Source: Devosia sp. MC521
GTDB taxonomy: Bacteria > Pseudomonadota > Alphaproteobacteria > Rhizobiales > Devosiaceae
Assembly: GCF_014127105.1 (NCBI RefSeq)
Contig: NZ_CP059902.1
Span: 2,882,001 to 2,946,000, forward strand
Reading direction: 5' to 3'
DNA length: 64,000 bases
The position numbers and the translations under genes are program-made. Shown here in pieces: positions 3,012-7,305 of the stretch. The notes under the pieces are model-generated. The model was not told the DNA's origin. It saw only the letters and a list, made by a program, of their open reading frames with translations, and did no database searches. Each line of letters starts with the position of its first letter. Position 1 is the first letter of the stretch.

Positions 3012-3488
3012 TTAGGCGCTCGGCTCAAACCGCATAGCGATACCATTGATGCAATAGCGCAGACCGGTTGGTGCGGGGCCGTCTTCAAAGACATGGCCCT
3101 GGTGCCCGCCGCAATTGCTGCAATGGACCTCGATGCGCATCATGCCAAGCGTAAGGTCCTCCTCGGTGCCGAGTGCGCCGGGGATAAAATCATAAAAGCT
3201 CGGCCAGCCGGTGTGGCTGTCATATTTGGTATCAGAGACGAAGAGGGCCTGATCGCAGGCAGCGCAGTGGAAGACCCCGGCGCGCTTTTCCTCGTTTAAG
3301 GGCGACGTATAGGGGCGTTCGGTGCCCTTTTTACGCAGAACGATATAGGCTTTTTGGTCCAAGCGATCCCGCCATTCCTCATCGGTCAGGCTGAAGGGGA
3401 ACTCGTCATCAGCGGCCCAGGCGCCACGCATAGGGAATGCTGCGGCAGAGAGGGCGGCCAGTGACAAAACAAATGATCGGCGTTGCAT
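3012..3488 (-). CDS. msrB: Exported peptide-methionine (R)-S-oxide reductase MsrB
   Basis: MsrB reduces methionine-R-sulfoxide in oxidised proteins. The 158-residue protein starts with a twin-arginine-like signal (MQRRSFVLSLAAL, with a likely cut after AWA near residue 25), so the mature enzyme should act in the periplasm. Zinc ligands are Cys75/Cys78 and Cys123/Cys126, and the catalytic Cys146 lies in RYCIN. A ribosome site GGGAG stands 8 bases before the ATG at 3488. It is followed at its 5' side by the fasciclin/ECF module on the same strand as the first fasciclin gene, which suggests a shared role in extracytoplasmic oxidative stress, although no shared promoter motif is visible upstream of it. 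Confidence 0.92.
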   Translation of the reverse strand: MQRRSFVLSLAALSAAAFPMRGAWAADDEFPFSLTDEEWRDRLDQKAYIVLRKKGTERPYTSPLNEEKRAGVFHCAACDQALFVSDTKYDSHTGWPSFYDFIPGALGTEEDLTLGMMRIEVHCSNCGGHQGHVFEDGPAPTGLRYCINGIAMRFEPSA

Positions 3489-3587: not shown

Positions 3588-4124
3588 TTAGTTTGCCGGA
3601 AGAAGCACGGCATCGACCACGTGGATAACGCCATTCGAAGCGTCAATGTCGGCTGCTGTGACGCTTGCGGAACCACCTGCTGCGTCGGCAATCTTAACGG
3701 TCTCGCCATCGAGGCTAAAGCTCAGCTCGCCACCCGCAACAGTTGCCGCCTTGAAAGTACCGCCGTTGTCCTGGATCAGCTTGATGAGGTCAGCGGCATG
3801 AATGTCGCCAGCGACCACGTGATAGGTGAGGATGCCAGTCAGCTGATCTTTGTTTTCTGGCTTCAGCAGAGTTTCAACAGTGCCAGCTGGCAGCGCGTCA
3901 AAGGCTGCGTTCACGGGCGCGAATACGGTGAATGGGCCTTCGCCATTGAGGGTGTCCACAAGACCAGCGGCTTGAACTGCTGCAACGAGAGTCGAATGAT
4001 CTGGCGAACCGATAGCGGTTTCAACCACGGTGCTGGTGCTCGCCATCATTGCGTCTTGAGCCGTAGCCGACAGGGAGCCAAATGCGAGTACTGCAGCAAC
4101 CGATAGAGTACGAAGCGTCATCAT
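3588..4124 (-). CDS. Secreted fasciclin (FAS1) domain protein, first copy
   Basis: This is a 178-residue protein with a Sec signal peptide (about 1-22, cut near ATAQD) and one FAS1 domain at about 35-178. The two conserved FAS1 motifs are visible: PFTVFAPVNAAFDALP and, near the C terminus, NGVIHVVDAVLLP. FAS1 domains mediate adhesion or ligand contact outside the cytoplasm. The start at ATG 4124 is supported by GGAAGG upstream and by the signal peptide; a longer reading frame to 4232 lacks these. It is divergent from the ECF sigma gene and has a predicted promoter of that sigma factor at 4173-4200. A paralogue lies at 5818-6375. The nearest known analogues are the mycobacterial MPT70/MPT83 proteins (family knowledge). 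Confidence 0.9.
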   Translation of the reverse strand: MMTLRTLSVAAVLAFGSLSATAQDAMMASTSTVVETAIGSPDHSTLVAAVQAAGLVDTLNGEGPFTVFAPVNAAFDALPAGTVETLLKPENKDQLTGILTYHVVAGDIHAADLIKLIQDNGGTFKAATVAGGELSFSLDGETVKIADAAGGSASVTAADIDASNGVIHVVDAVLLPAN

Positions 4125-4172: not shown

Positions 4173-4200
4173 ATTACGGGGAGCGATCTGCACTGGATTG
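4173..4200 (-). promoter_or_regulatory. Predicted ECF (SigK-like) promoter of the fasciclin-1 gene
   Basis: On the minus strand CAATCC (4200-4195), 15 bases, then CCGTAAT (4179-4173). The sigma operon has TGATCC, 15 bases, CCGTAAA. The published mycobacterial SigK consensus (CCATCC, 16-17 bases, CCGAAT) is similar. Transcription would begin near 4166, leaving a leader of about 42 bases. Confidence 0.6.
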
Positions 4201-4304
4201 GTTTTTACATGAGCGAGGCTCAAAAACCTCATTACAACGAAATATCAATGACTTACGGAATTTTCACGGGTCGAAAACGCTAGTTCTGGGCGAATTTTTT
4301 GGAG

Positions 4305-4332
4305 TGATCCAATCGACTTTGATCACCGTAAA
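4305..4332 (+). promoter_or_regulatory. Predicted autoregulatory ECF promoter of the sigma/anti-sigma operon
   Basis: TGATCC (4305-4310), 15 bases, CCGTAAA (4326-4332). The elements and spacing match those of the divergent fasciclin promoter. The elements are embedded in an interrupted dyad, GTGATC (4304-4309) and GATCAC (4321-4326), which might also be an operator. The leader would be about 80 bases. Autoregulation is normal for ECF factors. Confidence 0.55.
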
Positions 4333-4419
4333 GAACCGATTTTGACGCCGAAGATGAGTGTGACTTGCACGTCCAATCGGGCGCCCGCATAGTTGCGCCG
4401 CAGTTTCCCCGGAGGACGC

Positions 4420-4974
4420 ATGTCTACAAACACTATGCGAGACGACATCGGCGGGCTCATTCTCCGGGTCGCCTTGCGTGACCGGTCAGCATTCGATCGG
4501 CTCTATACCGCAACGGCTGCGAAACTTTTTGGCACCTGCCTACGTGTCTTAAACAACAGAGCCGAAGCTGAGGACGCCTTGCAGGAGGTTTTCGTCAAAA
4601 TCTGGCTCAAAGCGGATCGTTTTGCGGTGACCGGACAAAGCCCGATGACGTGGCTGATTGCCGTGGCCCGACACCACGCGATTGACCGATTGCGGGCGCG
4701 GCGTGAGGGCCTAGGGCAGATCGATGATGCGGCATTGGCCGTCAAAGACCCGAGCCCTGACCCCGAGGCGCAAACTGTTGCCGCTGGTGAAGCCACCCAA
4801 CTTGATGGGTGCTTATCCGAACTGGAAGAGCAAAAGGCCAGCGCCCTGCGTGCAGCCTATATGCAAGGCGATAGCTATGCGGATCTCGCGATCCGCTATG
4901 CGGTTCCGCTGAACACCATGCGCACATGGCTAAGACGAGGCCTGATGCGACTGAAGGAGTGCTTGGAGCGATGA
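4420..4974 (+). CDS. ECF (extracytoplasmic function) RNA polymerase sigma factor, SigK-like
   Basis: This is a 184-residue sigma factor with only regions 2 and 4. Region 2 (about residues 25-90) includes AEDALQEVFVKIW, which contacts core polymerase, and WLIAVARHHAIDRLRAR, which melts and reads the -10. Region 4 (about 125-180) contains the helix-turn-helix SYADLAIRYAVPLNTMRTWL. The ATG at 4420 follows GGAGGA at a good distance; an upstream TTG at 4393 has none. The stop overlaps the anti-sigma start as ATGA, so the two proteins should be made together. The neighbours (RskA-type anti-sigma, two fasciclins) match the mycobacterial SigK arrangement, but close relationship to SigK itself is only inferred. 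Confidence 0.93.
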   Translation: MSTNTMRDDIGGLILRVALRDRSAFDRLYTATAAKLFGTCLRVLNNRAEAEDALQEVFVKIWLKADRFAVTGQSPMTWLIAVARHHAIDRLRARREGLGQIDDAALAVKDPSPDPEAQTVAAGEATQLDGCLSELEEQKASALRAAYMQGDSYADLAIRYAVPLNTMRTWLRRGLMRLKECLER

Positions 4975-5681
4975 GCGTGATCAAAGATGACGATCTGCCC
5001 GAAGGCGGTGACGATATTCTTGCGGCTGAATTCGCGCTTGGTGTGCTCCCCGCGAGCGAACTGGCGATGCTCGCGCGCCGCGTCGAAACCGACGCAGCAT
5101 TTGCGCAATCCGTCTACGCCTGGGAAGAGCGCCTCACCCCGCTCGCCGAGGGTTATGTGCCCCAGGATGTGTCGCCACGTTTAAAGACCGCGCTCGACAG
5201 GCATCTCTTTGGCGTCGCAGGAGCACCTCAGAGCAAAGGTTTTTGGGGCAGTTTAGTGCTGTGGCGCGGCCTTGCCGCTGGTATCGCAGCGGCATTCCTT
5301 GTGGCCGTCACTCTTCCCATGATGCAGACGCCGCTGGCGCCCCAAACCAGCATCCTGGCCTCGCTGGCAGCGGACACAAGCGAAGTGCGCTATATGGCCA
5401 TTTACGACGCGGGTAGCGGCGAGATCCGGCTCGCCCATCTTGCAGGCGAACCTGCCCCGGGGCAGGTCTTTGAGCTTTGGGTCGCGGAAGGCGACGCGGC
5501 TCCAACCTCGCTGGGCGTCATCCCTGTGGGCGGCGCAGCCCGTATGCCCCTTAACGACAGCGTGAGAGCGTTGCTTAACAATCGTGCCCACATGGCGATC
5601 AGCGTTGAACCACCGGGCGGATCGCCGACAGGGCAACCGACCGGAGACGTGGTCGCATTAGGCGACCTCCTCGAAATCTAA
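4971..5681 (+). CDS. RskA-type membrane anti-sigma factor
   Basis: This is a 236-residue anti-sigma factor. A cytoplasmic sigma-binding segment (about 12-62, FALGVLPASELAMLARRVE) is followed by one membrane helix at about 95-118 and a periplasmic RskA C-terminal domain (about 125-236; GQVFELWVAEGDAAPTSLG is typical). The ATG at 4971 overlaps the sigma stop by four bases. No zinc-binding HxxxCxxC motif of the ZAS type is present, so release is not by a zinc switch; in mycobacteria RskA responds to extracytoplasmic redox state and is proteolysed (family knowledge). The periplasmic domain would hold the sigma factor silent until its signal appears. Confidence 0.88.
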   Translation: MSVIKDDDLPEGGDDILAAEFALGVLPASELAMLARRVETDAAFAQSVYAWEERLTPLAEGYVPQDVSPRLKTALDRHLFGVAGAPQSKGFWGSLVLWRGLAAGIAAAFLVAVTLPMMQTPLAPQTSILASLAADTSEVRYMAIYDAGSGEIRLAHLAGEPAPGQVFELWVAEGDAAPTSLGVIPVGGAARMPLNDSVRALLNNRAHMAISVEPPGGSPTGQPTGDVVALGDLLEI

Positions 5682-5817
5682 CTTTCTTTGTCTTTCGCTT
5701 CAGTACCTTACCAGCCCTGCGCAAAACAAAATGCGTGGGGCTGAAACTTATCTGCCGTTGCTCTCGTGTCTGTTTATGTCCCTCAATCCTGAGGCGATCT
5801 ACACATGGAGGAACGCC

Positions 5818-6375
5818 ATGAACATGATCTCGAAGACCCTTATCGCAGGCTGTTTTGCTCTGACCACTGCCGGTGCAGCACTGGCACAGGACAATCCAGA
5901 AGTGGGCGGCGCTGCAATGTTCGCGGACAAGAACATTGTCGAAAACGCCATGAACTCGGCCGACCACACCACGCTCGTAGCCGCTGTTTCCGCAGCAGGT
6001 CTGGTGGAAACCCTGCAGGGTGCCGGTCCTTTCACCGTCTTTGCTCCAACCAACGCTGCCTTTGATGCTCTCCCAGCAGGTGCGGTTGAAGATCTGCTGA
6101 AGCCAGAAAATAAGGACATGCTGACCAAGGTCCTGACCTGCCACGTGGTTGGTGCCAAGGCCCTCGCTGCGGACGTTATCAAGATGGTTGAAGACGGTAG
6201 CGGCAAGCACGTCATCGACACCCTTGGCGGCTGCAAGCTCACCGCCGAAGTTACCGACGGCATGGTCACCCTCACCGATGAAACCGGTGGCACCGCGACC
6301 GTCACCATCGCTGATGTGATCCAGTCGAACGGCGTTATCCACGTCATCGACAAAGTGCTGATGCCAGCGAGCTAA
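5818..6375 (+). CDS. Secreted fasciclin (FAS1) domain protein, second copy
   Basis: This is a 185-residue paralogue of the protein at 3588-4124. A signal peptide (about 1-23, cut at ALAQD) is followed by one FAS1 domain with PFTVFAPTNAAFDALP at 71-86 and NGVIHVIDKVLMP at the end. Unlike the first copy it has two cysteines in the mature part (108 and 139), which could form a disulfide in the periplasm. The ATG at 5818 has GGAGG 6-11 bases upstream. It follows the anti-sigma gene by 136 bases; I do not find the ECF promoter motif there, so it may be read from the sigma operon or from another promoter. Its role in adhesion or redox sensing is open. Confidence 0.9.
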   Translation: MNMISKTLIAGCFALTTAGAALAQDNPEVGGAAMFADKNIVENAMNSADHTTLVAAVSAAGLVETLQGAGPFTVFAPTNAAFDALPAGAVEDLLKPENKDMLTKVLTCHVVGAKALAADVIKMVEDGSGKHVIDTLGGCKLTAEVTDGMVTLTDETGGTATVTIADVIQSNGVIHVIDKVLMPAS

Positions 6376-6471: not shown

Positions 6472-7233
6472 ATGACTGCGCTTAAAACCCTCACTGCAGC
6501 ACTGCTGCTCACCAGTTTTGCTGCACCCGCAATGGCCGCAAATGTCGTTGGCCTATCAGGCGAAAACACCCTTCACTGGCTCGACACCGAAAGCTGGACT
6601 GAAACGGGTTCGATCGATGTAACAGGCGTTGATGGGCGTCTTCTCGGGATCGACGTTCGCCCCGCAGACGGGATGCTTTATGGTGTGTTCGCCGATGGCA
6701 CGCTCGCCACTATCGACCCCGAAACCGGTGTCGCCACCAAGGTCAGCACTTTGGCGACGAAACTCGCAGATGGCGTCTCAGCGACCGTTGATTTCAATCC
6801 AGTTGCCGACAAATTGCGTGTCATGGGCAGCGATGGCACCAGCCTACGCGTCACTGTTGATACCGGTGAAACCGTCACCGATGGCAGCCATAGCTACGCG
6901 GACGGTGCGTCCCCAAATGTCATCGCGGGCGCTTACACCAATTCCTACGCCGGCACGGAAAAGACCCAGCTCTTTAACATCGACGGCAAGGCTGGTTGGC
7001 TGGTTCTTCAGGACCCACCAAATGATGGTGTGTTGAACGCTGTCGGCGAAATTGGCGTTATGCCGACCGAAGCTGGCTTTGACATCGCATCAGATGGCAA
7101 GGGCGGCAATGAAGCTTGGCTCGTGATCGACGGTGCATTCCACACGGTTAATCTGGAAACCGGTGCGACCACGGAAGCTGGCAAGATCGACGGCGCAAAC
7201 GTCCGAGATATCGCTATTATGCCTGCTATGTAA
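6472..7233 (+). CDS. Secreted DUF4394 domain protein
   Basis: This is a 253-residue protein with a signal peptide (about 1-22, cut at AMAAN). The rest matches DUF4394 in style: repeated strands such as LLGIDVRPADGMLYGV, ATVDFNPVADKLRVMGSDG and LVLQDPPNDGVLNAVGEIG, suggesting a beta-propeller-like exported domain. No catalytic residues can be named. It stands 96 bases after the second fasciclin gene, on the same strand, with a strong hairpin between, and ends at a bidirectional terminator. The position argues that it belongs to the same ECF regulon. DUF4394 proteins have no established function that I know of. Confidence 0.85.
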   Translation: MTALKTLTAALLLTSFAAPAMAANVVGLSGENTLHWLDTESWTETGSIDVTGVDGRLLGIDVRPADGMLYGVFADGTLATIDPETGVATKVSTLATKLADGVSATVDFNPVADKLRVMGSDGTSLRVTVDTGETVTDGSHSYADGASPNVIAGAYTNSYAGTEKTQLFNIDGKAGWLVLQDPPNDGVLNAVGEIGVMPTEAGFDIASDGKGGNEAWLVIDGAFHTVNLETGATTEAGKIDGANVRDIAIMPAM

Positions 7234-7253: not shown

Positions 7254-7285
7254 AAAACACCCCGGCGCAAACCGGGGTGTTTTTG
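7254..7285. terminator. Bidirectional terminator between the DUF4394 gene and tolB
   Basis: AAAACACCCCGG (7254-7265) pairs with CCGGGGTGTTTT (7272-7283) around CGCAAA. A and T tracts on the two sides allow use in both directions by two convergent genes. Confidence 0.88.
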
Positions 7286-7305
7286 TATTCAATTGAGGTT
7301 TGGCA

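Follow-up and report, generated by a model that had tools for sequence, protein, structure and literature searches.

An ECF σ factor gene and a divergently oriented fasciclin gene in Devosia sp. MC521 raise the question of which regulator reads the DNA between them. A sequence-only reading of this region, which is part of a 64-kb stretch (64,000 nt, hereafter the window), had noted two ECF-promoter-like motifs, TGATCC-N15-CCGTAAA (4305-4332, + strand) and CAATCC-N15-CCGTAAT (4200-4173, - strand), and had assigned both to the local SigK-like σ factor, which would thus control its own operon together with the fasciclin gene. Both motifs are present as written and their spacers are equal. Autoregulation of ECF σ operons is usually looked for upstream of the σ gene; the comparison with related loci presented here points to a predicted promoter inside it.

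Results

The two motifs in the genome

The strict pattern RATCC-N15-CCGTAAW has three exact matches in the 3.78-Mb genome, i.e. both window sites and a third copy at C1:1643340, which precedes another ECF σ operon, rpoE-chrR. The relaxed pattern YRATCC-N15-CCGWAAW, suggested earlier for a genome scan, exceeds its control (nine matches vs none for the reversed pattern), but it is a poor regulon detector, since at least three of eight inspected matches lie inside open frames of at least 500 aa. With one mismatch allowed the motif shows no enrichment over the genome (45 matches vs 41 in the reversed control), and neither does the genome-wide count of TGATCC-N16-CGTA taken alone (6 sites vs ~4.6 per spacing). 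The significance of the pair derives from position and homology, not from counts. Under an ECF11 matrix built from 33 rpoE-type sites of other genomes, the genome studied here being excluded, the + site ranks first and the - site fifth among the 127,940 window positions (Table 1).

Table 1. Genes and predicted regulatory elements around the σ gene (window coordinates)
Feature	Position	Strand	Remarks
msrB-like gene	3012..3488	-	downstream of fas1a; named from sequence; fas1-msrB adjacency in most related loci
fas1a, fasciclin-domain protein	3588..4124	-	resident copy; PF02469
CAATCC-N15-CCGTAAT, putative fas1a promoter	4173..4200	-	probable homologue of SigK-type promoter with decayed -35; weak ECF11 match
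TGATCC-N16-CGTA, predicted ECF11 (RpoE/ChrR)-type promoter	4305..4330	+	faces σ operon; 19.9 bits, rank 1 in window; positional homologues in relatives
TTGCAC-N17-CATAGT, candidate housekeeping-like promoter	4365..4393	+	identified by eye
ECF σ factor gene, SigK-like	4420..4974	+	Sigma70_r2/r4; best NCBIfam PRK12514, 262 of 265 bits
Predicted intragenic SigK-type promoter, GCGAAACTTTTTGGCACCTGCCTACGTGTCTT	4519..4550	+	inside σ gene; 22.8 bits
RskA-like anti-σ factor gene	4971..5681	+	RskA_C PF10099, 2.3e-22
Predicted SigK-type promoter of fas1b, CTGAAACTTATCTGCCGTTGCTCTCGTGTCTG	5741..5772	+	25.7 bits, best in 64-kb window; same place in 93 loci
fas1b, fasciclin-domain protein	5818..6375	+	PF02469, 8e-34
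DUF4394 protein, last cassette gene	6472..7233	+	PF14339, 2.7e-67; 71-86% identical in Paracoccaceae loci
Terminator-like hairpin, tolB 3' end	7259..7289		approximate right cassette border, by-eye comparison with relatives

The + site resembles RpoE/ChrR promoters

The + site matches exactly the published ECF11 consensus TGATCC-N16-CGTA, which was derived from ChIP-Seq in P. syringae (PMC5507510). The same sequence precedes rpoE, on the rpoE strand, in 26 of the 30 rpoE-chrR loci of the family, and two further loci carry it on the opposite strand only; when spacings from 8 to 24 were tested upstream of rpoE in these 30 loci, none but N16 was found. As TGATCC-N16-CGTA is thus both the rpoE promoter of the family and the published ECF11 consensus, the + site is predicted to be an RpoE/ChrR-type promoter. 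An rpoE-chrR pair, i.e. a σ factor and a cupin (ChrR-like) anti-σ factor, both recognised by sequence, is encoded in the same genome (C1:1642006-1643333). On the other side of the C1:1643340 site lies a gene for an FAD-dependent oxidoreductase, whose own upstream region contains another TGATCC-N16-CGTA.

In same-genus relatives tolB is followed by fas1a-msrB, and TGATCC-N16-CGTA is found between tolB and fas1a, pointing away from fas1a, with no σ gene adjoining. Such positional homologues of the + site occur in at least ten same-genus genomes. Because these relatives carry the site without a σ gene beside it, the + site is regarded as predating the σ gene at this locus.

The local σ factor has its own motif

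From 92 orthologous loci we learned TGAAACTt-N-CGTRNCT as motif of the local SigK/RskA-like σ factor, and sites of this kind are what it is predicted to read. Of the 96 loci in which fas1 follows rskA, 94 contain the core GAAAC-N14..18-CGT, nearly always with a spacing of 16 or 17 (~1.5 occurrences expected for those two). The window was left out of the training of the SigK-type matrix, as were all sites internal to σ genes. Scanning the 64-kb window with this matrix gives two strong sites, at 5741 and at 4519, the next one reaching 6.8 bits, and the region of the two reported sites scores at most -2.5 bits. Throughout the 110 orthologous loci (0.92 Mb) there are 109 sites in the σ gene, 1 elsewhere and 3 antisense, in addition to 96 in the rskA-fas1 intergenic region (a site before fas1b in 93 of the 110 loci), a number that is partly by construction as the matrix was trained on regions containing the fas1b-type sites. 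No SigK-type site was found in the 500 bp upstream of the σ gene in any of the 110 loci. Likewise, YRATCC-N16-CGTA is absent from the 400 bp before the σ gene in all 80 orthologous loci searched, and a search for the reported motif before orthologous σ genes yielded no convincing counterpart.

Codon usage preserves the site inside the σ gene

The internal site recurs in the σ gene of 109 of the 110 loci, in 108 of them at the identical offset, i.e. in the same codons. We analysed codon choice in 71 representative σ genes sharing less than 90% nucleotide identity, which are nevertheless related and hence not independent. Codon 33 is GCG in all 66 representatives that have alanine there. In 70 of the 71 genes codon 34 reads AAA, a triplet used for 38% of lysines gene-wide, and CGT, which encodes 13% of arginines gene-wide, occupies codon 41 equally often. 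These three codons have the three highest values of excess synonymous conservation in the entire σ gene, and most spacer codons of the site show little excess. Shuffling synonymous codons within each gene kept the site in a mean of 1.5 and a maximum of 7 of the 71 genes, vs 70 observed. With a 12-bit cut-off the internal site was also detected in more distant homologues, namely in 26 of 29 at 49-68% identity, 14 of 20 at 40-48% and 4 of 20 outside the Alphaproteobacteria.

The σ cassette is probably of Paracoccaceae origin

The closest solved structure to the window σ factor is SigK (4nqw). With NCBIfam model PRK09646 for SigK it reaches 131.7 bits, below the cut-off of 226, so that we do not call it SigK itself. 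SigK-like (ECF18/ECF19) σ factors conserve a pair of cysteines, located at positions 133 and 183 of the M. tuberculosis protein (PMC7509140), to which C131 and C181 of the window σ factor can be likened by position, and an RskA-family anti-σ gene (PF10099) adjoins the σ gene as it does for this group. In the tree the window σ factor falls within Paracoccaceae (support 99/93), which indicates horizontal transfer of a Paracoccaceae-type cassette. fas1b and DUF4394 are ~80-86% identical in most Paracoccaceae loci; the same-genus orthologues of the σ factor are just ~51-58% identical to it. The cassette, comprising σ, rskA, fas1b and DUF4394 genes, sits between the + site and the tolB terminator, both borders being judged by eye; an Rfam scan gave a single weak, sub-threshold match, at this terminator. 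The candidate promoter TTGCAC-N17-CATAGT has by-eye counterparts of the form TTGNNN-N17-CANNNT at comparable distance to the start in several Paracoccaceae loci, and seems to have arrived together with the cassette. A scan of the region with the E. coli σ70 consensus called no promoter, this one included.

The fas1a side

In other genomes of the genus, fas1a orthologues with up to 78% identity are flanked by tolB and msrB. The fas1a-side site of the window scores -2.5 bits with the SigK-type matrix and 8.1 bits with the ECF11 matrix (as CAATCC-N16-CGTA). In relatives that possess the σ factor the fas1a promoters carry SigK-type sites of 20-29 bits at the homologous position, vs 3.2, 10.7 and 2.4 bits in three same-genus genomes lacking it (G015, G020 and G051, respectively). 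From this distribution the CAATCC box of the window looks like the decayed -35 element of a SigK-type promoter. A match to the SigK-like σ factor is missing from these three genomes, yet they keep fas1a-msrB, which suggests that the σ factor may have been lost and then, in the window genome, regained by transfer.

Discussion

Based on these findings we consider the following model quite probable. An RpoE/ChrR (ECF11) + site would have stood between tolB and fas1a prior to the arrival of any σ gene, and a Paracoccaceae-type cassette of sigK-like, rskA, fas1b and DUF4394 genes would have been inserted right downstream of it. Due to this position, transcription of the cassette could start at the + site, probably under stress by singlet oxygen or peroxide, and also at the housekeeping-like promoter of the cassette itself; that RpoE of this genome responds to singlet oxygen is suggested by analogy with known ECF11 systems. 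The resident σ factor would make no use of the + site and would instead recognise TGAAACTt-N-CGTRNCT before fas1b and within its own coding sequence. As transcripts from the internal promoter would span rskA and lack an intact σ gene, the active σ factor would raise the levels of its own inhibitor and its effector, i.e. establish negative feedback. We infer transcription from each site, the signal and the sign of the feedback from the sequence.

The assignment of both reported sites to the local σ factor, activating its own operon and fas1a, had in its favour the elements and spacing that the sites have in common as well as the mycobacterial precedent, where SigK-RskA controls mpt70/mpt83 (PMC7509140). 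Of this assignment the ECF-like character of both elements and their matched spacing hold, but autoregulation through these sites is highly improbable, given that the strongly conserved motif of the local σ factor is a different one and does not exceed -2.5 bits there, that YRATCC-N16-CGTA does not precede any of the orthologous σ genes searched, and that the + site is found without a σ gene. Control of both divergent promoters by RpoE/ChrR, which would make RpoE the shared regulator of σ operon and fas1a, is possible, if somewhat doubtful: the fas1a-side site ranks high under the ECF11 matrix, its -10 region CCGTAATTG is identical to that of rpoE, and an R. sphaeroides table on photooxidative stress includes the fasciclin gene RSP_1409 (PMC7074977), but two of the six bases of the -35 element CAATCC deviate and the homologous sites in the three σ-less relatives score only -5.8 to 1.0 bits with this matrix. 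That the + site is a chance match is scarcely credible in view of its positional homologues in the genus, although TGATCC-N16-CGTA occurs in the genome about as often as expected.

As for the site inside the σ gene, its placement within an open reading frame might indicate that it is a decoy for the holoenzyme or an element of the mRNA, or that a constraint on the codons matches the motif by chance, and codons 33, 34 and 41 could be held for some other reason. Such a role instead of a promoter is unlikely, however, as the -35 element, the -10 element and their 17-nt spacing fit a motif learned solely from intergenic regions and most codons between them show little excess conservation. The best reading of the internal site is an intragenic promoter, recognised by the σ factor it lies in, that would drive the anti-σ gene and provide negative feedback within the coding sequence. 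In a wider sense, SigK/RskA-type σ genes throughout the Alphaproteobacteria probably harbour, within the conserved codons for A-K-L-F-G-x-x-L-R-[VI]-L, a promoter that their own product recognises, with silent positions under selection and negative feedback via the anti-σ gene.

The locus combines traits of several known systems. Like the RpoE-ChrR (ECF11) regulons of Rhodobacter sphaeroides and Pseudomonas syringae it has the exact consensus at the + site, the rpoE-chrR operon of the genome bears the same promoter, and in R. sphaeroides, too, a fasciclin gene is among the stress-table genes; unlike there, one site precedes a second, unrelated σ operon, apparently inserted behind it. With SigK-RskA-MPT83/MPT70 of M. 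tuberculosis it shares a SigK-like σ factor, an RskA-family anti-σ factor, a fasciclin-type target and similarly placed cysteines, but here there is no SigK-type site upstream of the σ gene and the predicted promoter lies inside it. A precedent for this idea is rpoE6-ecfR6 of Sinorhizobium meliloti (ECF26), where the anti-σ gene ecfR6 has been suggested to have an RpoE6-dependent promoter located in the rpoE6 coding region (PMC6180224). That case concerns another ECF group and motif in a single organism, and codon-level conservation is not described in the pertinent part of that paper. Apart from this remark we found no direct description of an intragenic promoter for an anti-σ gene in the open-access literature.

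If the internal promoter works, the feedback of a large σ group lies within the σ genes themselves, out of reach of annotation and regulon scans, and recoded σ genes would lose it silently. The locus further illustrates how a transferred σ cassette may come under an older stress promoter, resulting in a σ cascade. The feedback wiring appears to vary among lineages, since in two homologous loci (L293 and L295) the internal site is accompanied by a second SigK-type site, which lies ~185 nt upstream of the aligned σ start; given such an upstream site, feedback in some lineages may not be exclusively negative.

Several minor observations concern the ECF11 sites and the genome. The locus L004 (C1:1641840-1644867), with rpoE-chrR, the divergent FAD oxidoreductase gene and two divergent TGATCC-N16-CGTA sites, resembles the usual ECF11 core arrangement. 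Identical 28-base matches at two separate places (G000:C1:115747 and G000:C1:573094; L001, L002) suggest a duplicated genome segment. In the same-genus relatives (L229:4560-4650, L223:4620-4710, L222:4206-4300 and equivalents) the divergent ECF11 site faces a short stretch up to the tolB terminator that contains no gene. A GTTCC is conserved 21-23 nt past the CGTA of these sites. The stretch may give rise to a candidate small RpoE-driven RNA of ~80 nt, or GTTCC may represent, in the opposite direction, the -35 element (GGAAC) of a candidate EcfG-like general-stress promoter oriented toward fas1a.
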